A stretch of DNA of 64,000 nt from Oscillospiraceae bacterium (GTDB lineage Bacteria > Bacillota > Clostridia > Oscillospirales > Oscillospiraceae). The DNA lies in contig WQXY01000003.1 in assembly GCA_009781515.1 (NCBI GenBank), forward strand, positions 62,001 through 126,000, in the 5' to 3' direction. The notes below the pieces were generated by a model, which ran no database searches, had not been told where the DNA came from, and worked only from the letters and a program-made list of their open reading frames with translations. A program made the translations under genes and the position numbers. Numbering within the stretch: the stretch's first letter is position 1; each line of letters starts with the position of its first letter. Below, one piece after another: positions 22,599 to 64,000 of the stretch.

Positions 22599-22603
22599 TA
22601 TTT

Positions 22604-22645
22604 TTAATATGCATATGTATAAATTATTATACATATGCATATTAA
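22604..22645. promoter_or_regulatory. 18-bp perfect inverted repeat upstream of the toxin-antitoxin promoter
   Basis: Arms ttaatatgcatatgtata and tatacatatgcatattaa are perfect, with loop aattat. The repeat ends five bases upstream of the -35 box and starts 36 bases after the rfbD stop codon on the other side. It could be a binding site for the antitoxin or a leftover transfer junction. It lacks a proper T tract, so terminator function for rfbD is less likely. Confidence 0.6.
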
Positions 22646-22680
22646 ATGTAAACATTTACTGCAACATTGCGCTTTATTTA

Positions 22681-49511: not shown

Positions 49512-50576
49512 ATGAACGCTGAGTTCTTTTCCGCCATTGCGGACATCGAAAAAGAGAAAGGTATCCCTCAATCCTACATGATTGAAAAAATCGAGCAGGC
49601 ACTTCTTGCGGCTTTGAAAAAAGACTATCCCGCAGAGGCTGAGTGTGCTCGGGTGGTGCTTGACCCGGTGGAGAAAACAGTTGATATGTTTATGGAAAAA
49701 GAAGTCGTCAAAGAAGTTGAAAACCCGAAAACACAATACTTGCTTGAAGATGCCAAAAAAATTCAAAAGGGCATTAAAGCGGGCGAATTCATTAACGAGC
49801 CTGTGGACACAACCAAATTTGGAAGAATTGCCGCACAAGCTGCAAAGCAGGTTATTATTCAAGGTATCCGAGAAGCCGAGCGCAACATAGTTTATGATGA
49901 GTTCACATCAAAGGAACATGAAATACTCACAGGTGTTGTGCAGCGCATCGACTCTCGCACAGGCGGTGTATCAATACAAATAGGCACAGGCGGCGCCTCC
50001 GGCTCTGAGCACACGGAAGCAATGCTCTCATCGGGCGAGCGTATCCCCGGCGAGCCACTGCGTGACGGCGACCGCATAAAGGTTTATGTTATCGAAGTCA
50101 AAAAAACCACACGCGGTCCGCAAATTCTTATATCACGCACACACCCCGGGCTTGTCAAGCGTTTGTTTGAGCTTGAAGTACCTGAAATCGCTGAGGGCAT
50201 AGTCGAAATCCGCAGCATTGCCCGCGAAGCAGGCAACCGCACCAAAATCGCAGTTGAGTCCAACGAGCCGGAGGTTGAACCGATTGGCGCATGTGTCGGT
50301 TCAAAAGGCAGCAGGGTCAACGCAATTGTAGGCGAGCTTGGCGGCGAAAAAATCGACATTGTCAGATATAACGAAGACCCCACCGAATACATAGCCTCCG
50401 CACTTGCTCCCTCCGAAGTTATAGACGTTATGATGAATGAAGACGGCAAATCATGCCGTGTCATCGTTCCCGATAATCAATTATCACTCGCAATAGGCAA
50501 AGAGGGGCAAAATGTACGCCTTGCAGCCCGCCTCACGGGCTTTAAGATAGACATTAAACCGGAAAGCCAGAGTTAG
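49512..50576 (+). CDS. nusA: transcription elongation/termination factor NusA
   Basis: This 354-residue protein has the RNA-polymerase-binding N-terminal domain (1 to about 125), an S1 domain (about 135-200), and two KH domains (VGSKGSRVNAIVGELGGEKI; SLAIGKEGQNVRLAARLTG). It lacks the C-terminal acidic repeats found in proteobacteria, as is normal in Firmicutes. The ATG follows GGAG by nine bases. rimP, which usually precedes nusA, is absent here. Confidence 0.97.
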   Translation: MNAEFFSAIADIEKEKGIPQSYMIEKIEQALLAALKKDYPAEAECARVVLDPVEKTVDMFMEKEVVKEVENPKTQYLLEDAKKIQKGIKAGEFINEPVDTTKFGRIAAQAAKQVIIQGIREAERNIVYDEFTSKEHEILTGVVQRIDSRTGGVSIQIGTGGASGSEHTEAMLSSGERIPGEPLRDGDRIKVYVIEVKKTTRGPQILISRTHPGLVKRLFELEVPEIAEGIVEIRSIAREAGNRTKIAVESNEPEVEPIGACVGSKGSRVNAIVGELGGEKIDIVRYNEDPTEYIASALAPSEVIDVMMNEDGKSCRVIVPDNQLSLAIGKEGQNVRLAARLTGFKIDIKPESQS

Positions 50577-50606
50577 CAATCAGGATAAAATTAAGGATTA
50601 ATAAAA

Positions 50607-50867
50607 ATGGCAACAAAAATCCCAATGCGTATGTGTCTCGGCTGCCGCACCATGAAGCCAAAGACCGACCTCATTCGTATTGTACGCTCACCGGACGGAA
50701 AAATATCAATAGACAAAACCCTCAAACTCTCCGGGCGCGGAGCGTATGTATGCAATAACTCCGAGTGCTTTAAGCGGATAATAAAATCAAGAGCCGTTTC
50801 TCGCACTCTCAAAACCGAAATACCCGAAGATATTTATAACTCATTGCAGGAGAATTTGAATGGATAA
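50607..50867 (+). CDS. rnpM: YlxR RNA-binding protein (RNase P modulator RnpM)
   Basis: This 86-residue protein has MRMCLGCRTMKPK and LSGRGAYVCNN, the YlxR signature. In Bacillus the protein modulates RNase P. It sits between nusA and ylxQ as in most Gram-positives and overlaps ylxQ by eight bases (ATGGATAA). Confidence 0.93.
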   Translation: MATKIPMRMCLGCRTMKPKTDLIRIVRSPDGKISIDKTLKLSGRGAYVCNNSECFKRIIKSRAVSRTLKTEIPEDIYNSLQENLNG

Positions 50868-51177
50868 AGCCCTCGGATTACTGGGAATAGCAAAAAAAGC
50901 AGGACTTCTTGCCATAGGCAGCGAACAAACCGCCATATCGGCAAGGCATGGCAAAGCACACTTGATTATATCTGCAAATGATACCTCGGACGGCTCAATA
51001 CGACGGGCAAAAGCCAACGCCGAGACAAACGAAACCAAGTATCTTGCAGTTCCTTACAGTAAACACGAGCTTGGCACTATCACAGGACGCGGCTCACCGG
51101 GAATACTTGCAATATTAGACAAAGGACTTGCAGAAAATTTTGAAAGGAGAGTGATGCATAATGAGTACACTGTTTAA
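50860..51177 (+). CDS. ylxQ: YlxQ, L7Ae-family RNA-binding protein
   Basis: This 105-residue protein of the L7Ae/L30e fold starts LGLLGIAKKAGLLAIGSEQT and carries HLIISANDTSDGS, which matches the K-turn-binding family. It is probably an RNA-binding accessory of the ribosome or of RNase P. It overlaps ylxR by eight bases and infB by seventeen. Confidence 0.93.
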   Translation: MDKALGLLGIAKKAGLLAIGSEQTAISARHGKAHLIISANDTSDGSIRRAKANAETNETKYLAVPYSKHELGTITGRGSPGILAILDKGLAENFERRVMHNEYTV

Positions 51178-53509
51178 GTACAGAGTTCACGAAGTTGCAA
51201 AGGACTTTAAGATAACAACCAAGCTGATAACTGAAATTCTCACAAAATATGCAACAGCTCCAAAAAACCACATGCATATACTCTCGGTCCATGAGCTCGA
51301 CATTATTTTCGAGTATCTGACCGTCAATAATCAAATCGAAAGCATAGAGGTTGTGTTTGCAGAGGTTGCTAAACCGGTTGCAGAAGCCGTCCCCGCCGCC
51401 GAGCAGGGAGAAGCTCCCACTCCTGCAAGCAAAAGCACTCCCGATGCTCCTGTGGCAGAGAGCACTCCTGCAGATGCTGCAGCCCGCAAGCCGCAGAAAA
51501 AAATCGACAAACCTTTCATGCCGCATAAAACACCGCAAAAACGTGTTATTGACACGTCCGGCGCCACAATAAATCTGTCAAAATATGATGAACGCCTTGA
51601 TAACCTTGTGACTGAACGTGCAGAGCGAATGAAAGGCGGCAAAGAAAAAATTGTCAGAAAAGCAAGAACACCCATGCAAAACATGGCACAGGGTGCTAAA
51701 AAGCGTCAGGAAGAACGCGACAGAATGAACCGCCTGCAGCTTGAGGTAGCAAAGAAAACCACACTAAAAGTGCTAATACCCGATGAAATCAGCGTAGGCG
51801 AGCTTGCAAACCGCATGAAAAAAACAGGAGCCGAGGTTGTACGCCAACTTATCAAGCTTGGTGTTATGGCTTCCGTTTCCGACATTATCGACCACGACAC
51901 CGCAGCACTTGTGGCAATCGAAATGGGCTGCAAGGTTGAAACCGAAGTTGTTGTCACAATTGAAGAACGTCTCATTGACGACAGTGTTGACACCGATGAG
52001 GAACTTGTACCACGCGCTCCCGTTGTTGTTGTTATGGGTCACGTTGACCACGGTAAAACCTCACTGCTCGACCGAATTCGCAAAGAAAGCGTTGCATCGG
52101 GCGAAGCGGGCGGTATTACTCAGCATATCGGTGCTTACCAGACACAAATACACGGCAATCCAATCACTTTCCTCGACACCCCCGGTCACGAAGCCTTTAC
52201 GGCAATGCGTGCCCGCGGTGCAAGCATCACAGATATTGCAATTCTCATTGTAGCAGCGGACGACGGTATAATGCCGCAGACGATTGAGTCTATCAATCAC
52301 GCAAAAGCTGCCTCAATTCCAATAATCGTTGCAATTAATAAAATTGATGTAAGCGGAGCAAATCCCGATAAAATCATGCAGCAGCTCACGGAATACGGTC
52401 TTGTTTCCGAAGACTGGGGCGGCGAAACAATAGTATGCCCGATTTCTGCAAAAACAGGCGAGGGCATTGACCACTTGCTCGAAATGATTATTCTGACAGC
52501 AGAGATTGCAGAGCTTCGCGCCAACCCGAACCGTTTGGCACGCGGAACAGTCATCGAAGCCCGCCTCGACAAAGGCCGCGGTTCACTTATGACCGTACTC
52601 ATTCAAAACGGCACACTCCGTCAGGGCGATACAGTTATCGCAGGCACTGCAGTCGGTAATGTCCGCGTGATGATGACAGATGCAGGCGAGCGTCTTGAAG
52701 AAGCAGGACCCTCTGTACCTGTTGAAATTTCAGGCATGTCCGAAGTCCCGAGTGCAGGCGATATGTTTAACGTTGTCACAGATGAGCGCATGGCAAGAAT
52801 ACTTGCCGAGCAGCGTAAAGCCGAAAAACGCGACATGTTTACCTCTACGGTCAAGGTGTCACTCGAAGATTTATTCTCACGAATTCAGCAAGGCGAGCTG
52901 AAAGACCTCAACATTATCGTAAAAGCGGACGTTCAAGGAAGTGCCGAGGCGATAAAAGCCTCGCTCGAAAAGCTGACAAACGAAGAAGTCCGTGTGCGTG
53001 TTATACACTCGGGCGTCGGCGCTATCAGCGAGTCCGATATTATGCTTGCTTCAACAAGCGGAGCAATAATTGTAGGCTTTAATGTGCGTCCCGACAATGC
53101 CGCACGTGACAGTGCACTTCGCAGTAATGTTGACATGCGGATGTATCGTGTTATCTACGAGTGCATTAACGAAATAGAGCTTGCCATGAAAGGAATGCTC
53201 GCACCCAAGTTCCATGAAGTAGTTTACGGACAGGCCGAGGTTCGCGAGCTATATAAATCGTCCGCAGTCGGCACAATATGCGGCTGTTATGTACAAAGCG
53301 GAAAAATTATCAGAGGCGGCAAAGCTCGTGTTGTCAGAGACGGTATCGTTATACATGAGGGTGATATCGCTTCACTTCGCCGTTTCAAAGACGATGTTAG
53401 GGAAGTCGCCACAAACTACGAATGCGGCATTTCCTTAGAGAAGTTTGACGATGTTAAGCTCTCTGACGTTATCGAATGCTTCGCAATGGAAGAAATCCCC
53501 CATGAGTAA
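51161..53509 (+). CDS. infB: translation initiation factor IF-2
   Basis: This 782-residue protein has an IF2-N domain (YRVHEVAKDFKITTKLITEIL), a lysine- and alanine-rich linker to about residue 200, then the GTPase: VVVMGHVDHGKTSLLD (G1), DTPGHEAFTAMRARG (G3), AINKIDV (G4). Domains II-IV follow, ending with fMet-tRNA binding motifs. It delivers fMet-tRNA to the 30S subunit. The start lies inside ylxQ. Confidence 0.98.
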   Translation: MSTLFKYRVHEVAKDFKITTKLITEILTKYATAPKNHMHILSVHELDIIFEYLTVNNQIESIEVVFAEVAKPVAEAVPAAEQGEAPTPASKSTPDAPVAESTPADAAARKPQKKIDKPFMPHKTPQKRVIDTSGATINLSKYDERLDNLVTERAERMKGGKEKIVRKARTPMQNMAQGAKKRQEERDRMNRLQLEVAKKTTLKVLIPDEISVGELANRMKKTGAEVVRQLIKLGVMASVSDIIDHDTAALVAIEMGCKVETEVVVTIEERLIDDSVDTDEELVPRAPVVVVMGHVDHGKTSLLDRIRKESVASGEAGGITQHIGAYQTQIHGNPITFLDTPGHEAFTAMRARGASITDIAILIVAADDGIMPQTIESINHAKAASIPIIVAINKIDVSGANPDKIMQQLTEYGLVSEDWGGETIVCPISAKTGEGIDHLLEMIILTAEIAELRANPNRLARGTVIEARLDKGRGSLMTVLIQNGTLRQGDTVIAGTAVGNVRVMMTDAGERLEEAGPSVPVEISGMSEVPSAGDMFNVVTDERMARILAEQRKAEKRDMFTSTVKVSLEDLFSRIQQGELKDLNIIVKADVQGSAEAIKASLEKLTNEEVRVRVIHSGVGAISESDIMLASTSGAIIVGFNVRPDNAARDSALRSNVDMRMYRVIYECINEIELAMKGMLAPKFHEVVYGQAEVRELYKSSAVGTICGCYVQSGKIIRGGKARVVRDGIVIHEGDIASLRRFKDDVREVATNYECGISLEKFDDVKLSDVIECFAMEEIPHE

Positions 53510-53870
53510 GTCTATTTTAAGAATAAATGAAGATATACATCGGGAGCTGTCGGCACTGCTTCGCGACATCAAAGACCCGCGCATTAAGCAAGGCATGATA
53601 AGCATTACCGCCGTTGATGTGACAAGCGACCTTGGTCAGGCAAAGGTCTATTTGAGCGTTTATGGTATGCAAAACCAAACCGAGCTTCAAAAAGGCTTAA
53701 AATCTGCGTCCGGTCATCTTCGTTACGAGCTTGGGCGGGCATTGAGTCTTCGCCATACACCGGAACTCAAATTTATACTCGACGAGTCTCTTGAGCGCGG
53801 TGCTGCAATAAATACAATTCTAAGCGGGCTTGATATTTCACACGACGAAGAAGCAAGTGGGGAGTTATGA
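53502..53870 (+). CDS. rbfA: 30S ribosome-binding factor A
   Basis: About 122 residues with a KH-like fold: INEDIHRELSALLRDIKDPR, ISITAVDVTSDLGQAKVYLS, and LSLRHTPELKFILDESLERG are all RbfA motifs. It matures the 16S 5' end. The ATG at 53502 overlaps the infB stop by eight bases (ATGAGTAA); earlier in-frame codons belong to infB. Confidence 0.95.
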   Translation: MSKSILRINEDIHRELSALLRDIKDPRIKQGMISITAVDVTSDLGQAKVYLSVYGMQNQTELQKGLKSASGHLRYELGRALSLRHTPELKFILDESLERGAAINTILSGLDISHDEEASGEL

Positions 53871-53873
53871 TTT

Positions 53874-54836
53874 ATGAGCAAAATAATCTCAATCCTTGAA
53901 ACCGCAAAGTGGCTGAGCGAAAATGACAACTATCTCATCATAACCCACAGACGTCCCGACGGCGATACCTTGGGCTGTGCGGGCGCTCTTGCGCAAGGGC
54001 TTCGCGAACTCGGCAAATGTGCATACATCTTTGAAAATCACGAAGTAACTCCGCGTTATTTACCCTTTGTTGAAGATTATACAGCACCTGCTGATTTTTC
54101 TGCCGACCAAATTATAGCTGTAGACATAGCAACAACAGAGTTATTTACAAAAAGTGCTTTGGAATATAAAGATAAAATCGCTCTTTGCATTGATCATCAC
54201 AACTCTAATACAAACTACTCAGAGCTTCTTTGCATTGATGCAAGCCGTGCTGCTTGCGGCGAGCTGATTTACGACATTTTGACCGATCTTGCGGGAAGTA
54301 TCAGCAAGACCACAGCCACATGTCTGTATGTTGCATTATCAACAGATACCGGCTGTTTTTCATACGGCAACACAACTGCCGACACACTGACTATAGCAGC
54401 ACAACTCATTAAAGCAGGCGCTCCAAATAAACAGCTCAACAAACTGCTCTTTAGAACAAAAACACATGGGCGCATTTTGATAGAGGGAATGATTACCTCT
54501 AATATGGAGTTTCATTTTGACGATAAGGTCGCAATCGTAAAAATCACACGTGAAATGATGAACAGTTCCAAAGCAACCGAAGACGATATTGACGATATTG
54601 CAAGCCTCCCCGGCTCTGTAGAGGGCGTTGGAATTGGAATTACGATACGCGAGCTTTCATCACCCACTGATTGTAAGATTTCAGTCAGGGCAACTCCCCC
54701 ATACAATGCACATGAACTTTGCGCAAAATTTGGCGGAGGCGGTCATATCACAGCCGCCGGCGCTTCAATCAAAAAAACTGTAGACGAGATAAAAGCTGAT
54801 TTATTAGATGAACTTAAACGGAATTTTGATAATTGA
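53874..54836 (+). CDS. nrnA: bifunctional oligoribonuclease/PAP phosphatase NrnA
   Basis: This 320-residue DHH/DHHA1 protein has [33 protein letters not shown] (DHH) and [13 protein letters not shown]. It degrades nano-RNAs and dephosphorylates pAp. GGGGAG lies nine bases before the ATG. It sits between rbfA and truB as in many Firmicutes, and truB begins inside its last 29 bases. Confidence 0.95.
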
Positions 54837-55539
54837 TAAACCCGCAGACTGGACATCCCATGATGTTGTCGCTAAGCTTCGCGGCGCACTGCGGATAAAG
54901 TGTATCGGACATGGCGGCACACTTGACCCCATGGCAACAGGTGTGTTGCCTATTTTCATTGGCACAGCAACCCGTCAGGCAAACAGCTCCACAGATGCCG
55001 ACAAAGAATATATCGCAGGGCTAAAGCTCGGCGTCGTAACGGATACACAAGATATTACAGGTAATGTCCTGCGCGAAAGCGAAGTGTCGGTAACACAAGA
55101 CGACATTAACGCAATACTCCCGAACTTTACAGGTCCGCAAAAGCAAATACCGCCAATGTACTCTGCAAAAAGACAAAACGGCAAAAAACTGTACGAACTG
55201 GCACGAAAAGGTATCGAAGTAGAGCGCGAACCAAGGGATATAACAATAAAAGTATTGGAGTTGTTGAAGCATGTGACAGGGGGACGCAATCCCTGCGAGG
55301 GGGAGGGGTTTGTCAACTCGCATGTTCTTCGTGTTAAATGCTCAAAAGGCACTTATGTACGCACACTTTGCCATGATATCGGGGCTGCACTCGGCTGCGG
55401 CGGCACAATGTCTTCACTTCGCCGAACAATGTCAGGTGTCTACAACATCCAAAATGCTCATACGCTCGACGATGTGCTGGGAGCAATATCAAACGGCGAA
55501 ATCGAAAAACTTATGTTCGAGGTATATCAAAATGGCTAA
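54808..55539 (+). CDS. truB: tRNA pseudouridine(55) synthase
   Basis: This 243-residue protein has [16 protein letters not shown], the catalytic [15 protein letters not shown] (Asp40) and [18 protein letters not shown]. It makes pseudouridine 55 in the T loop of tRNAs. Residues 156-170 ([15 protein letters not shown]) are encoded by a 44-bp palindrome-ended repeat lying just before the RVKCSKGTY strand; the same repeat interrupts rimO. The frame is kept, and the flanks remain family-like. Confidence 0.95.
55273..55316. repeat. 44-bp palindrome-ended repeat, copy 2, in frame within truB
   Basis: It matches the rimO copy at 42 of 44 positions (differences at positions 7 and 44). On the plus strand it starts exactly on a codon boundary and adds about 15 codons. 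The gene is read in the opposite sense from rimO relative to the repeat, so both strands of the element code without stops. Confidence 0.9.
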
Positions 55540-56428
55540 AAAACGTGTTGCGGCACTTGGTTTTTTTGACGGAGTGCATATCGGTCATGCCGCTCTTATC
55601 AGTAGAGTAGTGGATGTTTCCTGCACTACCGGCTATACTCCTTCGGTTATTACCTTCAACACACTGCCGCAAAACATAATCAGCTCTGAGAATACACCGC
55701 TTATAAACTCATCGGCTGACAAAACAGGCTTGATAAAACGCATTTTCGGGATAGATGATATTATTTGCCTGCCTTTTGACAGTGCCATGGCGGAGCTGTC
55801 ATGGGACGAATTCATCGACCACTTGGTTATTGCTCATAATGTAAGCCATTTTGTAGTTGGCAGCAACTTCAAGTTTGGAAAAGGGGCACTCGGCAACAGC
55901 ATGTTTTTATCTGACAAATGCAAACGCAGCGGATTGGGCTGCGATATTATCAATGCCGTTAAATATTCAAATATTATATGCAGCTCGACATATATACGCG
56001 AGCTGCTGCAACGCGGCGATATTGAACAGGCAAACGCTTTTTTGGGACATAAACACGTACTGACGGGCATTGTCCGAGGCGGTCAACGTTTAGGTAGAAC
56101 CCTTGACGCCCCAACCATTAACATGCTTTTTGAACGCGGTGTTTTAGTTCCCGCTTTTGGCGTTTACGCAACAAAGGTTTTTATCGGGGAAAATCTTTTT
56201 CTTAGCGGTGTGACAAACATAGGTGTCCGCCCAACGGTCGCAAAAACCCGCCGCATAACAGCCGAAACTTTTATTTTTAATTTTGAAGAAACTTTGTATG
56301 ACAGCGAGGTACGCCTGGAATTTTGTAAATTCATCCGCCCCGAGCAGAAATTCGAAAGCGTCGATGAGTTAAAAGAGCAAATCCAAAAAGACTGCGACGT
56401 TGCATTGGAGTATTTTGATACTATTTAA
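55532..56428 (+). CDS. ribF: bifunctional riboflavin kinase/FAD synthetase
   Basis: About 298 residues. The N-terminal nucleotidyltransferase has ALGFFDGVHIGHAALI and VVGSNFKFGKGALGN; the C-terminal flavokinase has GGQRLGRTLDAPTINM and GVTNIGVRPTV. It makes FMN and FAD. The ATG at 55532 overlaps the truB stop by eight bases (ATGGCTAA); the frame upstream is only truB in another phase. It is the last chromosomal gene before the integrated element. Confidence 0.96.
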   Translation: MAKKRVAALGFFDGVHIGHAALISRVVDVSCTTGYTPSVITFNTLPQNIISSENTPLINSSADKTGLIKRIFGIDDIICLPFDSAMAELSWDEFIDHLVIAHNVSHFVVGSNFKFGKGALGNSMFLSDKCKRSGLGCDIINAVKYSNIICSSTYIRELLQRGDIEQANAFLGHKHVLTGIVRGGQRLGRTLDAPTINMLFERGVLVPAFGVYATKVFIGENLFLSGVTNIGVRPTVAKTRRITAETFIFNFEETLYDSEVRLEFCKFIRPEQKFESVDELKEQIQKDCDVALEYFDTI

Positions 56429-56466
56429 CATAAAAATATAGGTATTGTATAATCATGCAACAACGA

Positions 56467-56504
56467 CGGGGTGTGGCGCAGTTGGTAGCGTGCTTGACTG
56501 GGGG
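56467..56504 (+). pseudogene. 5' half of tRNA-Pro (GGG anticodon), cut after the anticodon loop; likely attL
   Basis: CGGGGTG forms a 5' acceptor strand, GCGC-AGTTGGTA-GCGT a D-arm, CTTGA the 5' anticodon strand and CTGGGGG the anticodon loop (anticodon GGG). The next bases should be TCAAG but are caatttgaacc, so the second half is missing. The tyrosine integrase gene starts 316 bases on. The break fits integration at the anticodon stem-loop. The matching 3' half should lie at the far element end, beyond the window. Confidence 0.75.
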
Positions 56505-56531
56505 CAATTTGAACCGATTTTAACTAAATAA

Positions 56532-56735
56532 TCAACATATCAGCGTTGCAGTTGCAACGCTTTTTTTGGATTTAGTTGACAGTGCAGATATGTTGATTTA
56601 TGATGCTCAAAAACACAGGTCAACGTCACTCAAAATGTCGAGTCAACCATACTTCGCAAACCCTTGCAAATACTACGCTTTTTGTTTGTTTATGTTGACG
56701 GAAATGAGGTGCAAATAGCCGTAAAGTTTGGTTGA
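56532..56735. promoter_or_regulatory. seven GTTGA/TCAAC motifs between tRNA half and integrase
   Basis: TCAAC occurs at 56532, 56620 and 56643, and GTTGA at 56575, 56592, 56694 and 56731. The 11-bp arms aatcaacatat (56530-56540) and atatgttgatt (56588-56598) form an inverted pair. Clusters like this are typical of integrase arm-type binding sites flanking a core site. Confidence 0.45.
56542..56568 (+). terminator. intrinsic terminator after the tRNA remnant
   Basis: agcgttgc and gcaacgct pair around agtt and run into seven T residues. It would end transcripts entering from ribF and the tRNA-Pro promoter. Confidence 0.85.
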
Positions 56736-56819
56736 TTCCACAACGAATTTTGAAACTCAAAAAGTATAATAAAAGAAAGGATTTGATAAAAAAAAGAACA
56801 AAAAAGGAGACCTAAAATT

Positions 56820-57833
56820 ATGGCTACAAGAACAAAAACAACTATTGAAAGATGCACAGACATTGACGAAATTTTAGTTGATACAGCATTTGAAGAATTT
56901 TTGATTGAGAAAAACGCAAGTAACATCTCGCCGACTACGGAAACTAATTACAAAAACAGTATCAAAAAATTGAAGATATTTATTGGTGAAGATAAAACGA
57001 TTGAATCTGTCACCAATAAAGTCATCTATCAATGGATAAACACAATGAAAAACGACGGAATCAAAGTCACTTCCATTAATCATTATTTGAGGGAAATTAA
57101 GTCTTTCTTGAATTGGTGTTCAGTAAAAGAGTATACAAAAGAAAAATACAAAATTGCTTTTTTGAATGGTCAAGAAGAAACAATTAAGACTTTTTCGGAT
57201 GCAGAGCAAGCAAAAATACTTGTCAAACCTGATAAAAATGCGAATTTTGCGGAACATCGAACTTATGCCATAATTTGTTTTGTATTAGATTCGGGTTGTC
57301 GAGCGTCTACAGTTTGTAATGTTAAAATGCAAGATATTGATTTTAAGACAGGATTTATAACTCTTGCACACACGAAAAACAAAAAGACACAAAAAGTTCC
57401 GATGAGTTCTGCGTTTAGTTCCGTTATTACAGAATATATTAGAATTTGGCGCAAACGTGCAAAGCCTGACGAGTATCTTTTTTGCAATGTTGGCGAACAG
57501 AAATTAACTCCGTCAGCATTGCGGTTGGCTTTTGGGAAATACTGCTTCAAACGTGGAGTTACAAGATTGAATGTTAAGGGTGAATTTGAGGGCAAGTCAA
57601 ATATCCACGGACTCCGTCACACGTTTGCTAAAGGATATTTGATGAATAATGGGAATACTTTTAAATTACAGCAAATTTTAGGTCACTCGACTTTGGATAT
57701 GACAAGAAAGTATGTTGCATTATTCAGCGAGGATATAAAAGAAGGACACGATGATTTTAGTCCGTTTGCAGTATCAAAGCAAAATTTAAGTCGCACACAG
57801 ACAGTTAAAAATGATGAAGATAAGTCGGCATAA
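56820..57833 (+). CDS. tyrosine recombinase (integrase)
   Basis: This 337-residue protein has an N-terminal SAM-like core-binding domain (about 20-120, TETNYKNSIKKLKIF) and a catalytic domain with the R-K-H-R-H-Y set: SGCRAST (Arg), TKNKK (Lys), HGLRHTFA (His-x-x-Arg), GHSTL (His), MTRKYV (Tyr). AAAGGAG precedes the ATG and a TATAAT box lies about 45 bases upstream (near 56766). It should catalyse integration into, and excision from, the tRNA-Pro site next to it. Confidence 0.92.
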   Translation: MATRTKTTIERCTDIDEILVDTAFEEFLIEKNASNISPTTETNYKNSIKKLKIFIGEDKTIESVTNKVIYQWINTMKNDGIKVTSINHYLREIKSFLNWCSVKEYTKEKYKIAFLNGQEETIKTFSDAEQAKILVKPDKNANFAEHRTYAIICFVLDSGCRASTVCNVKMQDIDFKTGFITLAHTKNKKTQKVPMSSAFSSVITEYIRIWRKRAKPDEYLFCNVGEQKLTPSALRLAFGKYCFKRGVTRLNVKGEFEGKSNIHGLRHTFAKGYLMNNGNTFKLQQILGHSTLDMTRKYVALFSEDIKEGHDDFSPFAVSKQNLSRTQTVKNDEDKSA

Positions 57834-57834
57834 G

Positions 57835-57985
57835 GAATCGCATTCTAAACACAGATATTGCTCAATTTGAATCATTACACGCAAATAATGAAAATGTCTT
57901 TAGAATCGAAAAACTGACGTAAATTTGCATATCCAGAGTTGTTGCTTGGCAAACGCTCTGGATTGCAAGCCCGAGAATGCGATTC
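57835..57985. repeat. 151-bp segment bounded by 12-bp inverted repeats
   Basis: gaatcgcattct (57835-57846) and agaatgcgattc (57974-57985) are perfect inverted ends directly after the integrase stop. Inside is a further hairpin with arms ccagag and ctctgg (57933-57961). No ORF is present. It could be a small hairpin element, a large terminator, or a structured RNA. Confidence 0.5.
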
Positions 57986-58031
57986 TACGCAAAAAATGAG
58001 ATTGAAAAAATAACGAAAGGAAATTATAATT

Positions 58032-58268
58032 ATGACAAAAGAGCAGTTAGCAGAAATGGGTATGTCGAGAAGCGAGTGGAAGAAATTAGAATCTGAAGTC
58101 AGATTTTTCAAAAAACTTGAAGATATGGAATATGCAGACGAGCGAGTAAGCGATATCCCCGAAGCACTTGAAATTTATTTGAATACAGGAAGAACTTATA
58201 CAGGCAAAAAAAGAGGAAGAAAACCGAGTAGAGAAAAGGAGTATATATTATGCCAAAGAAGCCATTAA
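58032..58268 (+). CDS. small protein with AT-hook-like tail
   Basis: This 78-residue protein was not recognised as a family. It is charged and helical and ends with KKRGRKPSREKEY, whose RGRKP core resembles an AT-hook that binds the DNA minor groove. AAAGGA precedes the ATG. The next gene starts 19 bases before its stop, so the two are coupled. A DNA-binding accessory role (for example in excision) is possible but unproven. Confidence 0.55.
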   Translation: MTKEQLAEMGMSRSEWKKLESEVRFFKKLEDMEYADERVSDIPEALEIYLNTGRTYTGKKRGRKPSREKEYILCQRSH

Positions 58269-58630
58269 CTTGGGAAAACTACAAAGAATACGAGAAACGA
58301 GAACTTTTTGATATCTTGCGGAGAAAAATAAAACGATTAGAAAAAAAGATTGATGAACTCGAAAACCCAGTTTGCGAGTTAAATGGTTTTCGAGGCGAAC
58401 TGATAGACAGCACAGTTCGCAAATTTATAGAAAAGAACACGGGTAAGTTCAAGATATCAGATGAAGACATATTTAAGATATTCTCTGCTTATAGTTGGTG
58501 GGAAAAATATGACAATTTTACTGCTTCAGAACTTATAGAAATTATGGAATCAGTAATGGAAAGCAATCTATCTGACCCGAGCTCACTGAGACAACTAACA
58601 TTTGAGTTTGACGAACCATACGACTTTTAA
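58250..58630 (+). CDS. hypothetical protein with N-terminal coiled coil
   Basis: This 126-residue protein was not recognised. Residues about 10-42 (YEKRELFDILRRKIKRLEKK) are a likely coiled coil; the rest is acidic and helical. The ribosome site is GGAG, eight bases from ATG. It overlaps the preceding small gene and is followed by an intrinsic terminator at 58657, so the pair probably forms one unit. Confidence 0.55.
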   Translation: MPKKPLTWENYKEYEKRELFDILRRKIKRLEKKIDELENPVCELNGFRGELIDSTVRKFIEKNTGKFKISDEDIFKIFSAYSWWEKYDNFTASELIEIMESVMESNLSDPSSLRQLTFEFDEPYDF

Positions 58631-58656
58631 TGGCAAGAATAGAATATAACAATACT

Positions 58657-58681
58657 AACGCTCCCGAAAGGGTGCGTTTTT
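58657..58681 (+). terminator. intrinsic terminator
   Basis: aacgctccc and gggtgcgtt pair around gaaa, with a T tract after. It lies 26 bases after the stop of the coiled-coil gene. Confidence 0.75.
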
Positions 58682-58786
58682 AATGTCATAAAACGAAGCA
58701 TAGTTTTACAAAAGACTCCTTCTTTTGAAATATGCTTTTTTGTTGGAATCCTGTTTTCTGTTTTTGTCAATTAAACGAAGTTACCT

Positions 58787-58799
58787 AAAACGATATTTA
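58787..58799 (+). promoter_or_regulatory. shared 13-mer upstream of the serine recombinase
   Basis: AAAACGATATTTA here is identical to sites at 60448-60460 (before rep) and 63458-63470 (before the HTH gene), always 24-39 bases before the ATG. It may include a -10 region or bind a shared regulator. Confidence 0.55.
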
Positions 58800-58823
58800 A
58801 TAACAAAAAGGAGTGCAAAAATT

Positions 58824-59372
58824 ATGAAATTCGGAATCAGTCTTATCTCGACCAAAAAACAAGACCATCAAAAACAAATTGAATATCTTTTGAGCCAAAA
58901 TGTCCCCGACGAAAACATAATTGTAATTACAGAATCAGGCAAAACAAGAGCCAACTCTATTGTTGAGAAATTAAAAGAAAAGAATGTTCAATCGGGTGAC
59001 GAAGTTGTTTTTGAGTGTTTTGACAGAATCGGGCGAAATATAGTTTCCATTATAAACGCTGTTGAATGGTGCGAAGATAACAAAATCGAAGTTTATTATG
59101 ATGGAAAATTTTTAGACAGAAGCACGGAGCAAGGCGAGATGGAAACTCTGACACAAGCGTTTATAGCTGAAATGTATAGAATCAGACGGTCGCATCAATC
59201 GAAAAAAATTATAGCAAGAGATAAGGCAAACGGAACATACAAGGGCGGAAGACCGGCTCTCTCTGATAAAAAAATTAAGGAAATAAAAAAATGGCAAGCA
59301 AAAGGTCTTAAACCTGCGGAAATTAGCAAAATTACAGAAGTGAATCGCACGACCGTTTATAAATATCTTTAA
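58824..59372 (+). CDS. small serine recombinase (resolvase/invertase family)
   Basis: About 182 residues. GISLISTKKQDHQKQ aligns with the usual GYARVSTxxQ start, with the nucleophile Ser kept but the conserved Arg two residues before it replaced by Leu. ECFDRIGRN keeps the D-R-x-G-R active-site set. The C-terminal HTH (KWQAKGLKPAEISKITEVNR) binds DNA. The ATG at 58824 follows AAAGGAG; earlier in-frame codons lack a site. A multimer-resolving role for the plasmid-like replicon is likely. Confidence 0.82.
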   Translation: MKFGISLISTKKQDHQKQIEYLLSQNVPDENIIVITESGKTRANSIVEKLKEKNVQSGDEVVFECFDRIGRNIVSIINAVEWCEDNKIEVYYDGKFLDRSTEQGEMETLTQAFIAEMYRIRRSHQSKKIIARDKANGTYKGGRPALSDKKIKEIKKWQAKGLKPAEISKITEVNRTTVYKYL

Positions 59373-59377
59373 GTTTC

Positions 59378-59414
59378 TATTTGTTTAAAAAGTCTCGGAT
59401 ATTTGTTTAAAAAG
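59378..59414. repeat. 15-bp direct repeat after the serine recombinase
   Basis: TATTTGTTTAAAAAG occurs at 59378-59392 and 59400-59414, spaced 22 bases start to start, just after the recombinase stop. It could be part of a resolution site. Confidence 0.5.
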
Positions 59415-59478
59415 CCGATTGCTATTCTCGGACTAAAAGTTATAGTGCTAATTACAAATTGAAAGGAGCGCAAAGACA

Positions 59479-59664
59479 ATGAATAAAAAAACAATCAAAC
59501 AAATGCCCAAAAAAGATGTCAGAAAAATGTGCGAAGACCTGAAAGCAATCGGTGAAAAATATAAAATTGCCGAAGCTGAAAAAATCGTGTTTAACAGCAT
59601 TATGTCCTGTCTCCAATTAACGTGGAATGAAATCCACGGAGATGAAAACATTCTCCAAATGTAA
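59479..59664 (+). CDS. hypothetical small basic protein
   Basis: This 61-residue helical protein (KQMPKKDVRKMCEDLKAIG, then a short acidic end) was not recognised. A strong ribosome site (AAAGGAG) and a terminator hairpin at 59685 bracket it, which supports expression. No function can be assigned. Confidence 0.5.
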   Translation: MNKKTIKQMPKKDVRKMCEDLKAIGEKYKIAEAEKIVFNSIMSCLQLTWNEIHGDENILQM

Positions 59665-59684
59665 TTACACATTAAATTGAATCT

Positions 59685-59714
59685 GTAAACGAGGCGTTTT
59701 GACGCCCCGTTTAC
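59685..59714 (+). terminator. hairpin terminator after the 61-residue gene
   Basis: GTAAACG-a-GGCG pairs with CGCC-c-CGTTTAC around ttttga; a moderately T-rich tail follows. The preceding ttgaatct is shared with the next terminator at 59979. Confidence 0.6.
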
Positions 59715-59759
59715 ATTATTTCTGATATTTAATAAAAACAGTTTAGAGTGAGGTTAAAA

Positions 59760-59957
59760 ATGAAATTCATTAAAACAAAACTTAAATCAAGTAAAGGCGA
59801 TCCAAACTCTGCAAGTATGGTTATATGGATATCTATTGCCGTAGTCGTTGTTTTAATTCTTGCGAGTTTGATTATTCCGGCTATTACAGAAAAGGCAGGG
59901 GACATTGCTGATGAAGTCAACTGCACTGGTTCGCTTTTTGGCGGAAGTTGTGATTAA
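59760..59957 (+). CDS. small single-span membrane protein
   Basis: About 65 residues: a basic N-terminus (KFIKTKLKSSKGDPN), one hydrophobic helix (ASMVIWISIAVVVVLILASL) and an acidic, cysteine-containing outer tail (NCTGS, GGSC). The KG before the helix resembles a prepilin cleavage site, but the usual Glu is missing. The ATG at 59760 follows GAGGT. It may be a pilin-like or small regulatory membrane protein; function is unknown. Confidence 0.55.
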   Translation: MKFIKTKLKSSKGDPNSASMVIWISIAVVVVLILASLIIPAITEKAGDIADEVNCTGSLFGGSCD

Positions 59958-59978
59958 AAGAAAAATAAATTGAATCTT

Positions 59979-60014
59979 GCAAACTGGACGCACATTGCGT
60001 CTTAGTTTGCTTTT
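59979..60014 (+). terminator. intrinsic terminator after the membrane protein
   Basis: gcaaact-g-gacgc pairs with gcgtc-t-tagtttgc around acatt and runs into TTTT. Confidence 0.75.
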
Positions 60015-60332
60015 AGTTTGCAAGTTTATAAAACTATGTGCCTGCTATTAGAATCTCGCTAAACGTATTCTAATCTGTCTATTAAATATGTCTTTGCCAT
60101 AACTATAAAAATACTGATACCTAATATCCTATTAATGGCAAAAAACTTTTTACTGGAACTTTCCTAATTTTGCCATTCCTTAACGACTAAATCTATACTG
60201 CTAACTCGCTAAAAACTCTCTCAACGAGAGAAAAACAAGAGAATCTTGGTTTTTTTAGTTTTTAAATATGTTTTTTATAGTTTTTAGCTACGGCTATTCC
60301 TGTTGCTATCCTATGCGTTGGGGATAGCTTCA

Positions 60333-60420
60333 GTAATAAAATACGACACACTGGGTAATAAAATACGACAGCTTCGGTAATAAAATACGACACGTTGGGT
60401 AATAAAATACGCCGTAATAG
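60333..60420. repeat. four 22-bp iterons of the replication origin
   Basis: gtaataaaatacg recurs at 60333, 60355, 60377 and 60399, exactly 22 bases apart, usually followed by acac/acag. The 5' flanks alternate (agcttc, then ctgg or gttgg), so the array is two 44-bp pairs. It lies about 70-150 bases before the initiator gene, as in iteron plasmids. Confidence 0.85.
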
Positions 60421-60447
60421 ATATTAAGATGATATTACTTATTACTT

Positions 60448-60460
60448 AAAACGATATTTA
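60448..60460 (+). promoter_or_regulatory. shared 13-mer upstream of rep
   Basis: This AAAACGATATTTA copy is identical to those at 58787 and 63458 and lies 29 bases before the rep ATG, between the iterons and the gene. Confidence 0.55.
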
Positions 60461-60489
60461 AACTAAACACAAAAACGAGGTATAAAATA

Positions 60490-61326
60490 ATGGAAAAAAG
60501 ACTTGTAATTTACGATAACAAATTGAACAACTTCGGTCTGCGGAATTTTCTTCCGCACGAGCAAAATTTATTTTGGGCGCTAATTATGAAAGTTATAGAT
60601 AGAGAGGGAGATACTATAAAAATATCTCGAAAAGAAATTGAAGAACTTTCTAAATATAAAGCGAAAAATTATAAAGCAACGACTTGGGAAGACAGTATGG
60701 AGTCGATGGGTAGCAAAGTTATTAAGTTGAATACAACGCTTAAAAATGAAAAAGGTGGCACAGTATTATTTGTTTGCTTTCCTGTTTTTGAAATTAATGA
60801 TGATGGAATCGAAATTGAAGTATCGAGATACTTTCAACCGTGGTTCAATAACTTTGCAGGCAAACAGTATACAAAATTTGAATTAAAAAAAATGATTGGA
60901 TTAAGAAGCGGATATGCAAAAGAGTTATTCAGATTTTTGATGCAGTATAAAAGTTCGGGATATTGGGAAGTATCTGTAGAAAAATTTAGAGAACTGCTAT
61001 GTATACCAAAAAGCTACAAATGGGCAATGGTCGAAAAACAAATAATATATCCTGCATTAAGTGAACTTACGTCTGATGCTAACCCTATTTTTGAATATCT
61101 TGAATACTTTAAGAATAAAAAAGGCAGAGTTACGGAATCTATCAAATTTGAATTTAAGGCAGTATCAGAAAACAAACAATATAACGGTAACAAAAAAGAA
61201 TATGCAAGCGTCAAGGCAGGTAAAATGGAGAATCCTCCAAAGCCAACCACACGCAAAACTCAAAAGAAAGAAACACACGAAGAAGAATTGCAAAGAAAAA
61301 TTGATTCTGGTGAAATTGATTGGTAA
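60490..61326 (+). CDS. Rep_3-type plasmid replication initiator
   Basis: This 278-residue protein has two winged-helix-like halves (residues about 15-130 and 130-230) with FFNNFAGKQYTKFEL-like sequence (PWFNNFAGKQYTKFEL), GYAKELFRFLMQYKSSG and VEKFRELLCIPKSYKW. These match the RepB/Rep_3 family of iteron plasmids. The C-terminus is lysine-rich. It should bind the four upstream iterons and load the host helicase. GAGGT precedes the ATG. The gene marks the element as a former or current replicon. Confidence 0.85.
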   Translation: MEKRLVIYDNKLNNFGLRNFLPHEQNLFWALIMKVIDREGDTIKISRKEIEELSKYKAKNYKATTWEDSMESMGSKVIKLNTTLKNEKGGTVLFVCFPVFEINDDGIEIEVSRYFQPWFNNFAGKQYTKFELKKMIGLRSGYAKELFRFLMQYKSSGYWEVSVEKFRELLCIPKSYKWAMVEKQIIYPALSELTSDANPIFEYLEYFKNKKGRVTESIKFEFKAVSENKQYNGNKKEYASVKAGKMENPPKPTTRKTQKKETHEEELQRKIDSGEIDW

Positions 61327-61341
61327 GGAGGAAAACTAAAA

Positions 61342-62337
61342 ATGAAAACTAAAAATAATTTACTTGATTATGAAGAAGTTGAACACGTCCATTCTGACGA
61401 AGAATTTACCGAAAAAGCAAATACACCTGACCCAGTTCTAAATGACATAATGAATATCTTTGCTGTTCCTGAATCTGACCTTAAAGAAAATTCTGCACAA
61501 CCAATCGAAGATAAGGACTTTCAACTTCGACTTGAAGCATCTAAAAAAGAATATAAAATTTCCTCAGATGAAGTAAAAAATAAAAACAACGGACTTTCTA
61601 AACTGACCAAGAAAACCGATGTCCCCGAATCTCAACCACAATCCCAAAAGAACGATGAACTAAAGTCCACCGAAAACCAAAGTTCTTCCGTTTCTCTCGC
61701 TGACAGAATAGAAACAGCAAATGGATATTATGAAGAATATCTCGAAATTATTGACTGTATTAGAATAGTATCGTGGCAACTTATAAATAAATTCAGTCCT
61801 GCTAAACGCACAACTATAAATAGCCGATTAGACAAATTAGTTAAAGATAAAAAAATTCAAAAATTCAAATGTAAAAAAACTAATGATACCTACTATGCGT
61901 CCAATAATTATTTTAATTCTTCTCATAATAAACATAATTTGTGGGTTGGTCTTATGAGTTATAATGCTCTTCTCGATGGCTGTGAAGTGATTAAAGGATA
62001 TGAAGTCAAAAAAGACAAAAACCATAAATACAGATTTTCCAGAGTTGGCAAAAATGATAACTTTATTCCTGACATCGTGACAGTTAAAGATGGAATTACA
62101 GTTGCACACGAAGTTGAGTTGAATAAAAAAAGTGGTGATGCACTTAAAAATAAAATCGAAGCCTATGCAAAAAGTATCAGAAACGGATTGTTTCAACTCG
62201 CTTTCTATTATATTGACCTTTCTGACCAAGATGGCAATAGTATTAAAAAGAAACTTGAATACTGGGTAAAAGAATTTAATGCCGTAGATAAAATTCAAAT
62301 AGTGAATTTTACAGATGAAGAACTTGGAATTAAATAA
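61342..62337 (+). CDS. Replic_Relax-like protein (possible MOBC-type relaxase)
   Basis: This 331-residue protein has a disordered acidic N-terminus (1 to about 110), a winged-helix segment (RTTINSRLDKLVKDKKIQKF, about 155-175) and a nuclease-like domain with NFIPDIVTVKDG followed by AHEVELNKKSGDALKNKIEAY, a D..ExE pattern as in the PD-(D/E)XK fold. This order matches the replication-relaxation family, some of which act as relaxases in mobilisation. It follows rep by 15 bases with a strong AAGGAGG site, so the two are co-transcribed. Family assignment is from motif memory. Confidence 0.55.
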   Translation: MKTKNNLLDYEEVEHVHSDEEFTEKANTPDPVLNDIMNIFAVPESDLKENSAQPIEDKDFQLRLEASKKEYKISSDEVKNKNNGLSKLTKKTDVPESQPQSQKNDELKSTENQSSSVSLADRIETANGYYEEYLEIIDCIRIVSWQLINKFSPAKRTTINSRLDKLVKDKKIQKFKCKKTNDTYYASNNYFNSSHNKHNLWVGLMSYNALLDGCEVIKGYEVKKDKNHKYRFSRVGKNDNFIPDIVTVKDGITVAHEVELNKKSGDALKNKIEAYAKSIRNGLFQLAFYYIDLSDQDGNSIKKKLEYWVKEFNAVDKIQIVNFTDEELGIK

Positions 62338-62350
62338 AATTGTTTGACTT

Positions 62351-62389
62351 AATATACCCTTATCAGTCGAGATAAGGGTATATTTTTAA
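62351..62389 (+). terminator. strong intrinsic terminator after the rep operon
   Basis: aatatacccttatc and gataagggtatatt pair perfectly (14 bp) around agtcga and run into a T tract. It separates the rep operon from the structured region. Confidence 0.9.
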
Positions 62390-62416
62390 TTTCTTGCTAT
62401 CGAAAATTTTTAACTG

Positions 62417-62526
62417 CTGACGAAAACTATATTTCGTCAGTTCGTTTCGTCAGCCGTTTCGTCCAACTGACGAAAACTCTGACGGGGACTATTCAATGCA
62501 ACCGCAATGCCTGACCGTTTCGTCAG
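62417..62526. repeat. cluster of CTGACGAAA motifs in both orientations
   Basis: ctgacgaaa occurs at 62417 and 62467, and its complement tttcgtcag at 62432, 62445 and 62518, with partial copies at 62457 and 62479. The first two form a hairpin. They may be protein-binding repeats or alternating pairing partners at the 5' end of the structured region; an oriT role is also possible. Confidence 0.7.
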
Positions 62527-62694
62527 AACTCGTAAAATTTGCGTGATAGTCTAACGGGTATCAGCCGTTAGATATTTCATATTTCGGACTGTTCTACAGT
62601 CCACATTTAGAACAACTGCTTCGCAGTTGTGAACTCCAGCCCAGCCAACCGCAGTTGGCAACTCATCCTGCGGGACTCGTGGAGGCTCGTCTGC

Positions 62695-62790
62695 GCCATT
62701 TACCAATCAGCCACCAACCTATTTCTAATTAAAAAAAGAGAATCGCAGATTCTTTTTAATTAGAAATATGGTGACTGATTGCTAAATGGC
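62695..62790. repeat. long imperfect inverted repeat, arms about 45 bases
   Basis: gccatttaccaatcag at the left matches the complement of ctgattgctaaatggc at the right. The inner arms atttctaatt and aattagaaat, and agaatc and gattct, extend it to a nearly continuous helix around a short central loop. Confidence 0.85.
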
Positions 62791-62958
62791 TTGCCAAGTC
62801 CATCAGACTCACTGCGGTTCGTCTAATGGGAAAGTCTGCGGACTTTAGGGATTGACTCGTCAATAGATAGGTAAAGCTATCTCTCGACTCATCAATCAGA
62901 TGTGGCTCAAATACCGTGCTTTTCAGGGAAAACCTCAACGGCAAAACCAAGCAAGCCT

Positions 62959-63052
62959 GATAGACTATGGCTCATAAATTAGAAAATGGACTTTCTAATT
63001 TATTCTAAAAATACCAACAGGACGTTGGTATCTTTAGACTCCATAGTCTATC
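62959..63052 (+). repeat. three-way-junction module
   Basis: gatagactatgg (62959-62970) pairs perfectly with ccatagtctatc (63041-63052). It encloses two perfect hairpins: ataaattagaaa with tttctaatttat (12 bp) and ataccaac with gttggtat (8 bp). Chance occurrence of this nested set is very unlikely. Confidence 0.85.
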
Positions 63053-63422
63053 GGTATGCAAGTTGGGGTATTAAAGCTGTCAGAGTCCATTCTGACTAAA
63101 TAGTAAGCCAACTTGCAGGCTTGCGGAATGCCTGCACGAACACCAAATGCTTGACCACGAGCAGTATGCACCACGGGATGCTTACAATGAGCGTGAGAAC
63201 CTGCGGACGTTCTCAATTGAACAAGACTTTGCGTAAAGCTCTCCCGTAAACTTTGACAAGGAAATCCTTAGCCAACTGACAGACCTTGAAGCGCCCTGTG
63301 GGCGCTGAGAATAAGCGCTCGGCGGGCGGGCAGACGGCAAGCGGTCAGAACAAGAAAAACAAGACACGAAGAAGTTCGTGCCTCTCGGTGGCAATGCAGT
63401 TATAGTTTTTGTTTTTTTGGTT

Positions 63423-63457
63423 GTTGTTGAAGCGTGAAAAATTTTCGTTTCGACAAC
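63423..63457. promoter_or_regulatory. imperfect palindrome upstream of the HTH gene
   Basis: gttgttgaagcgtgaaaa and its partner ttttcgtttcgacaac are largely complementary, directly before the shared 13-mer at 63458. It is a candidate operator for the small HTH protein downstream. Confidence 0.45.
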
Positions 63458-63470
63458 AAAACGATATTTA
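63458..63470 (+). promoter_or_regulatory. shared 13-mer upstream of the HTH gene
   Basis: This is the third identical AAAACGATATTTA copy, 39 bases before the ATG at 63510. Confidence 0.55.
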
Positions 63471-63509
63471 GTTATACCGAAGTAAAAACCTAAAAAGGGG
63501 GTTAAAATT

Positions 63510-63860
63510 ATGATGAAGCACGAGAATCACAATTTGCAAACAATCAATAAAAAGCAAACAACAATCTATTTAAGAACGAGAAAAGAAAAGCCTCCAAAAG
63601 TATTTGACGGCATAGATGAAATTGTAGTTATTTATTTTGTTGGTGAAAATGGAAGTATCGAGCCAGAGAACAAACTTAATCAAGATGTAATTGATGTAAT
63701 TTATAAATTGTTAGATGAAGGGGAAACGGTAAAAGCCATAGCAGACAAATTGGGAATCCATAAGACGACAGTTTATAATTATAAAAATCAACGAGAGTTA
63801 AAGCAAAAGGAAGCTATGTTAAATAACGTTGGACTAAAGTCTAACGAAGATGCAAAGTAA
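63510..63860 (+). CDS. small HTH protein
   Basis: This 116-residue protein has a basic N-terminus (QTTIYLRTRKEKPPKVF) and a C-terminal helix-turn-helix (KLLDEGETVKAIADKLGIHK, then TTVYNYK) similar to the HTH tail of the element's serine recombinase. No recombinase domain is present. A palindrome and a shared 13-mer precede it and GGGGG forms its ribosome site, so it may regulate element genes that share the 13-mer. Confidence 0.65.
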   Translation: MMKHENHNLQTINKKQTTIYLRTRKEKPPKVFDGIDEIVVIYFVGENGSIEPENKLNQDVIDVIYKLLDEGETVKAIADKLGIHKTTVYNYKNQRELKQKEAMLNNVGLKSNEDAK

Positions 63861-63881
63861 ATTCAGAATTGCATACAATTA

Positions 63882-63910
63882 TTGCAATTATTCTGCGATT
63901 ATGGTAAAAT
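63882..63910 (+). promoter_or_regulatory. SigA promoter near the right edge
   Basis: TTGCAA (63882-63887) and TAAAAT (63905-63910) are 17 bases apart, pointing right. The 85 bases that follow have no start codon with a ribosome site, contain the hairpin ggtcgcagcgacc, and are GC-richer, so a second RNA or a long leader may begin here. Confidence 0.55.
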
Positions 63911-64000
63911 TGCCAGATGTGAGACCATAAATGTGGTCGCAGCGACCGTGAAGTGATTGCAACACGACACGGCGAATGTAGAGAACTCGGTAAAAGCTCA

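Follow-up and report, generated by a model that had tools for sequence, protein, structure and literature searches.

A hairpin-dense non-coding region in an integrated Rep3 plasmid-like element, tentatively interpreted as a single-stranded DNA locus

Introduction

At plasmid transfer origins (oriT), nic has been described as lying beside a hairpin, with (C/T)ATCCTG(C/T) as the MOBP nic consensus (PMC3772185). Relaxase-less plasmids with an oriT are mobilised in trans in the case of pWBG749, and a branched single-stranded DNA hairpin is predicted at this oriT (PMC4652767). The locus described here recalls the pWBG749 family in two respects reported in PMC4652767, namely branched single-stranded DNA hairpins beside the oriT core and plasmids mostly lacking Mob genes of their own, but those plasmids are staphylococcal, and the likeness is one of description. 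An RNA beside oriT can also be needed for mobilisation, as stated for sgm-sRNA of SGI1 in PMC9299015; unlike the present region this is a small RNA, and the two are likened by description only. Among large structured RNAs, ROOL (RF03087) resembles the region in its similar size range and mobile-element setting and GOLLD in its size and mobile-element setting (PMC12286853).

The window analysed here is the whole stretch of 64,000 nucleotides from an Oscillospiraceae bacterium (contig WQXY01000003.1, positions 62001-126000). A reading of the letters alone, hereafter the sequence-only reading, had singled out positions 62403-63418 as a candidate giant ornate non-coding RNA of about 1 kb. Hairpin runs of the kind found there mark places where DNA acts single-stranded. 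It is proposed, tentatively, that 62400-63135 functions as single-stranded DNA within an integrated Rep3 plasmid-like element, most likely as an oriT with its leading region, for which another element would supply the relaxase in trans.

The integrated element

The presence of an integrated plasmid-like element, already suspected in the sequence-only reading, was borne out by Phage_integrase and Rep3 domains, by 22-bp iterons and by an apparent tRNA gene half, recognised by eye, that precedes the integrase. The element begins after approximately position 56470, where the G+C content drops to about 33%. The probable 5' half of the tRNA gene (56470-56507, +), by eye like tRNA-Pro with anticodon GGG, would have been cut by the element and is the likely left attachment site. 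ARAGORN found no tRNA gene in the window, and one pattern search for the other tRNA half returned three unlike matches only.

A tyrosine integrase is encoded at 56820-57833 (+; Phage_integrase, E 1.5e-29), with small orphan genes after it. A serine recombinase or resolvase-like protein follows at 58824-59372 (+). The listed ORF opens at 58725 (Resolvase, E 2e-12), and the in-frame start at 58824 was picked by eye. The 69-aa protein at 59748-59957 has one hydrophobic stretch and seems membrane-like, pilin- or coat-like by eye, with no family match at 0.001 in Pfam or PHROGs. Iterons with a 22-bp unit (60326-60411, +) precede the gene for a Rep3 family replication initiator (60490-61326, +; Rep3_N, E 2.3e-21; Rep3_C, E 6.2e-11) and comprise a tandem repeat at 60333-60411, of 3.6 copies with 87% match, and a 44-base row from 60326. 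The orphan protein o331 (61342-62337, +), which adjoins the structured region, had no match at 0.001 in Pfam, PHROGs or NCBIfam, and its likely intrinsic terminator, a 14-pair stem then a T run (62351-62384, +), lies outside the reported interval.

An HTH protein (63510-63860, +; HTH_7, E 1.6e-07) has a relative further along the element that is 40% identical to it (E 6e-15). The N-terminal segment of this second HTH protein (9952-10386 of sequence L005) is apparently doubled. A BspA-type leucine-rich-repeat protein is also encoded further along, and the right end of the element lies beyond the contig end, the contig stopping 2747 bases past the window. The motif AAAACGATATTTA occurs three times in the window (58787, 60448 and 63458; all +), ending 24-39 bases before the start codons of element genes, those of the recombinase, Rep and the HTH protein, and is perhaps a shared promoter or operator.

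Extent and anatomy of the hairpin region

Several descriptive elements of the sequence-only reading held. Between the end of o331 at 62337 and the start of the HTH gene at 63510, the list of ORFs contains only three of at least 60 aa, each on the minus strand (64, 60 and 70 aa), in agreement with the region being free of genes. The G+C content is raised, at 0.45 for 62403-63418 versus 0.332 for 56820-62337. More than fifteen hairpins had been claimed, and 18 stems with a net score of at least 6 were found in 62400-63135; 40% of the bases here lie in net-8 stems, against at most 13% in 200 mononucleotide shuffles. The extent of about 1 kb was correct only in part. Excess structure is present over some 730 bases (62400-63135), and the rest of the 1016-base interval (63136-63420) has little or none, with z scores of -0.7 (+) and -2.3 (-). 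Genuine hairpins, well beyond chance expectation, therefore extend over about 730 bases and not the 1016 first reported.

When the window was divided into 344 tiles of 736 bases, for which the median share of bases in near-perfect stems was 0.049, the top three tiles (0.38, 0.33 and 0.32) all came from this region. The next densest tile was at 56305 (0.24); the hairpin tiles concerned span 56305-57224, over the probable attachment site.

The region opens with a cluster of five exact copies of TTTCGTCAG (62417-62526; three + and two -). Five of the six copies in the window fall within these 110 bp, and shuffles of the whole 64 kb average 0.5. The cluster can form alternative hairpins and is iteron- or operator-like. 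Four successive perfect hairpins of 6-8 bp, taken from the stem list, then occupy 62550-62659. Starting four bases past the hairpin at 62644-62659 is CATCCTGC (62664-62671, +), a nic-like site that matches the MOBP consensus. Hairpin and site follow each other as in published descriptions of oriT, but the consensus occurs in the window at chance frequency (7 copies versus 6.2 expected), and the site is a lead only. A giant hairpin of 96 bases follows at 62695-62790, with stems of 22 and 16 positions plus an inner stem, and the stem list gives three more hairpins at 62800-62829, 62831-62846 and 62850-62897.

The last part is a nested domain (62951-63124), in which an 8-bp outer stem encloses two successive three-way junctions with arms of 9, 12, 15 and 12 bp. 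The minus strand of 62940-63135 has a z score of -10.4 and a tightly defined fold. Two apical loops of the domain, 62986-62991 (ATGGAC) and 63085-63090 (GTCCAT), are 6-nt complements, with a P value of 0.024 when loop letters were shuffled, computed after the pair had been noticed and from a hand-made list of loops.

Folding energies

The region is more stable than its shuffled controls, with none of 20 and none of 60 shuffles as good on each strand. 62400-63399 reached minimum free energies of -368.8 (+) and -390.8 (-) kcal/mol, whereas its shuffles averaged -266 and -285. For 62400-63135, z scores with RNA energies ranged from -12 to -18 over both strands. The excess also appears under DNA energies, at -17.4 and -17.2 on the two strands. 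Long folds were compared with 20-60 shuffles, and the z score for 62400-63420 varies by batch between -10 and -21.

Windows of 250 bases, each compared with 200 shuffles, were strong on both strands at 62300-62549, 62600-62849 and 62900-63149 (z -5.9 to -9.3) and ordinary at 63050-63299 and 63200-63449 (z -1.1 to +0.5). The strands differed in two of the eight windows, 62450-62699 with z scores of -4.2 (+) and -2.3 (-), and 62750-62999, exceptional only on the minus strand (-1.6 on + and -5.3 on -). Wobble pairs made up 5.6% (+) and 6.7% (-) of pairs in the minimum free energy folds of 62400-63135, versus 11.7% and 13.4% in shuffles, and are thus about half as common as in shuffled folds. Elsewhere in the window, 22603-22646 is an AT-rich perfect inverted repeat with 20-base arms, and the windows over it are also folding outliers.

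Comparison with DNA origins and structured RNAs

Yardsticks were all measured in one way. They comprised 10 RNA pieces (16S and 23S rRNA in six pieces, rnpB, ROOL, csrB and tmRNA), six of them from one rRNA operon, and six DNA pieces from single-stranded DNA origins. The comparator gaps are taken as origins, that of IKe being annotated as such, and the gap at 66159-66478 of the F plasmid (NC_002483) is taken to be oriT.

Near-perfect stems account for 40% of the bases of the candidate, 0-6% of those of the RNA pieces and 6-36% of those of the DNA pieces. The M13 intergenic region reached 0.32 and the four other filamentous-phage pieces 0.06-0.14, with If1 b (0.06) and I2-2 (0.10) near the RNA range. 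The F oriT gap comes nearest in this share; like the present region it is a non-coding gap in a mobile element, with a stem share of 0.36 versus 0.40 here, and folds well on both strands. It differs in being less than half as long, in its z scores of about -5 to -8 versus -12 to -18 here, and in adjoining traM and traY. The densest of 62 tiles over 60-72 kb of F (0.26) overlaps the oriT gap before traM. Tiles of pC194 and pUB110 reach 0.25-0.27, and the sites in them are without annotation. The intergenic region of M13 and other filamentous phages is likewise a run of near-perfect hairpins in non-coding DNA acting single-stranded, but in M13 the wobble-type mismatches in net-8 stems fall 8 to 0 on one strand, which also folds better, and the element here has no recognised phage gene.

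With DNA energies, z scores were -0.3/+0.3 for a 16S piece (-2.1 to +0.3 over the 16S piece and rnpB), -3.5/-2.0 for ROOL, -5.5/-3.2 for M13 and -5.3/-5.1 for the F oriT tile. The candidate exceeds every DNA yardstick as well and is far more structured, so that it has no true match among the controls. Unpaired A-T skew was 0.34-0.62 in all 10 RNA pieces and 0.14 (+) and 0.08 (-) in 62400-63135. Because four of the six DNA pieces also reach at least 0.33 on one strand, the skew speaks against RNA without being DNA-specific.

The DNA reading is favoured by a stem share like that of known single-stranded DNA origins and unlike that of the RNAs, by structure that stands out to the same degree on both strands with DNA energies, and by the low share of wobble pairs. 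Most of the stems appear to be maintained, for both strands, as Watson-Crick DNA. Against this reading, the candidate surpasses the DNA yardsticks themselves, the strand-uneven windows, two of eight, are not predicted by purely strand-symmetric DNA, and the nested junctions and complementary loops would suit RNA too.

Search for homologues

None of the routes tried led to a homologue of the region. By DNA, the region was found in one of 300 family genomes, its own. In 19 genomes of the genus searched at E 10, the best match outside its own genome among the matches listed was short, with E 0.047. The plasmid and phage collections gave no blastn match. A covariance model of the nested domain (R1, 62951-63124) was built from one sequence given twice and run with strict filters that may miss distant relatives; it matched 4 of 300 family genomes, its own and three at per-genome E values of 0.05, 0.19 and 0.43, taken as chance.

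The proteins of the element are similarly isolated. o331 was found in one of 394 genomes of the order, its own (0 of 393 others), Rep in one of 250 and the HTH protein in one of 119, in each case the own genome. Collections of viral contigs held no match to o331, Rep, the HTH pair or the integrase, the genome contigs none to Rep or o331 (two queries), and plasmids and phages none to o331 or the HTH protein. Distant relatives of Rep (<60% identity) occur in 2277 plasmid records and one phage record. Relatives of the integrase (27-37%) occur in 10 other genomes of 200; five stretches carrying them had no match to Rep, o331 or HTH and none to R1.

A pattern search of the viral contigs returned one contig with clustered TTTCGTCAG, otherwise unlike the element, and none with the stem pattern. 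In that contig (L046, 2305-2530) CTGACGAAA/TTTCGTCAG is repeated in non-coding DNA; a GroEL-like gene was recognised by eye, and there is no other similarity to the element. Three further sequences (L054, L055 and L056) gave short exact matches without wider similarity.

A possible transfer origin and a putative relaxase in trans

The region is marked by dense near-perfect hairpins that fold well on both strands, by a repeat cluster and by its setting in a replicon, and inverted repeats or hairpins in a non-coding gap, a feature of oriT, are present. We infer single-stranded action, transfer, a relaxase in trans and a role for the repeats. In the proposed mechanism, a relaxase from another element would nick one strand in trans, and the nicked strand would fold into branched hairpins. 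These may position the relaxosome, start complementary-strand synthesis in the recipient, or both. The TTTCGTCAG cluster would be bound by an accessory DNA-binding protein, possibly an HTH protein of the element.

No relaxase in cis was found by Pfam among the 9 window proteins of the element or the 4 tail proteins, that is, in the visible part only. Of the two relaxase families looked for in the genome, PF03432 gave no protein (0 of 1), and Mob_Pre (MOBV) gave one relaxase gene, on another contig. Comparison of the hairpin region with the Mob_Pre locus gave no sequence similarity (best E 0.58). The locus itself (L062, 679-3374, contig C7) carries the Mob_Pre relaxase gene and, by eye, a MobC-like and an integrase-like gene, with hairpins in the 133-bp gap between the Mob_Pre and MobC-like genes, and is likely a mobilisable element. 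Within the surrounding 14 kb, at least six 300-base windows are denser than this hairpin gap. The Mob_Pre gene in the cell and the pWBG749 precedent favour a transfer origin served in trans; the lack of a relaxase in the visible element and of PF03432, the dissimilarity of the two sites, the low rank of the hairpin gap and the chance frequency of the nic-like site count against it.

Alternative interpretations

The giant ornate RNA of the sequence-only reading was not upheld. There was no Rfam match at gathering score anywhere in 50000-64000, and the excess of folding is present on both strands and under DNA energies, with about half the wobble pairs of shuffles and, in 62400-63135, loops without the A-richness of all 10 RNA pieces, although 62540-63400 on the plus strand approaches it. 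ROOL, GOLLD, OLE and HEARO were absent from the 15 sub-threshold Rfam matches up to E 10 in 62200-63600, which were mostly microRNA families scoring the giant hairpin. The ROOL copy used for comparison differs further in having no net-8 stem, 17% wobble pairs on its RNA strand versus 16% in shuffles, and four tRNA genes nearby, the window here having none. That copy (L042, 1501-2056) comes from a genome of the same order, and its four tRNA genes lie within 3.6 kb. Known ribozymes, introns and HEARO were rejected, none reaching gathering score and Hammerhead_1 and RNase_MRP lying far below. A tRNA or tmRNA was rejected on the ARAGORN result.

It is unlikely that the region encodes a large structured RNA belonging to a new orphan class, some 600-860 nt from one strand and perhaps oligomeric via loop-loop contacts as in ROOL and GOLLD. 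The nested three-way junctions with their tightly defined fold and the complementary loops are in its favour. So is the motif CTGCGG/CCGCAG, which occurs five times in 62400-63420 versus 0.7 expected (P 0.0007) and closes stems of at least 3 pairs in three of five cases here versus 4 of 42 elsewhere in the window; four of the five would give UNCG-type loops on the plus strand. Mismatches of A-C versus G-T type number 5 to 1 on the plus strand, not significantly, so that wobbles favour the minus strand, and the unpaired A-T skew of 62540-63400 is 0.31 (+) and -0.11 (-). These strand hints conflict, however, and each is weak. Near-perfect stems (0.40 here, 0 in ROOL) and the A-T skew of 62400-63135 are outside the ranges of the RNA pieces, no Rfam model matched at gathering score, and promoter-like sites in 61000-64000 (13 versus 8.8 expected, sd 3.0) are not above chance. 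The oriT and leading-region reading, itself held tentatively, is preferred over an orphan RNA.

Quite unlikely is a locus acting on double-stranded or cruciform DNA, such as a partition site, a serine recombinase site or a second replication origin, in which proteins would bind the TTTCGTCAG repeats and the hairpins would form cruciforms. The cluster at one end, the Rep3 replicon and recombinase in the element, and the equal folding of both strands with DNA energies would be consistent with such a locus. Against these, the repeats are confined to 62417-62526 while strong structure continues to about 63130, and a Pfam scan of 9 proteins from the window detected none for partition.

An assembly artefact, or decayed repeats without function, is improbable. 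The draft genome (2.3 Mb) comprises 57 contigs and carries the region once, but different hairpins with different sequences extend over 730 bp, nested and between intact genes, and the region is not an inverted copy of one read end. An attC array was dropped, only one short RYYYAAC/GTTRRRY pair being recognised by eye. A filamentous-phage-like provirus, whose packaging signal and strand origins the region would contain, is very improbable, since, despite a stem density close to that of the M13 intergenic region and the membrane-like protein at 59748-59957, Rep3 is a theta-type initiator and no inovirus-annotated hit was found for 8 proteins of the visible part in PHROGs at 0.001 or for 6 at up to E 5, integrase and recombinase left out.

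Implications

The measures used here suggest a cheap discriminator between RNA and DNA, combining near-perfect stem share, wobble share, strand symmetry and loop composition, based on few yardsticks. It is possible, if doubtful, that a very large folded single strand of a new class, either DNA or RNA, is represented here, about 700 nt long and carried on a Rep3 integrative element. Such a class would, with the same doubt, be nearly all Watson-Crick paired, with nested three-way junctions and complementary loops, and stabler relative to chance than all the origins and RNAs compared. Were the region an RNA, it would add another ornate class, though one whose helices are nearly perfect. If instead it is a transfer or single-strand origin, as tentatively preferred, its size and elaboration would be unusual, and it would reveal how an integrated plasmid can move with no relaxase in its visible part.
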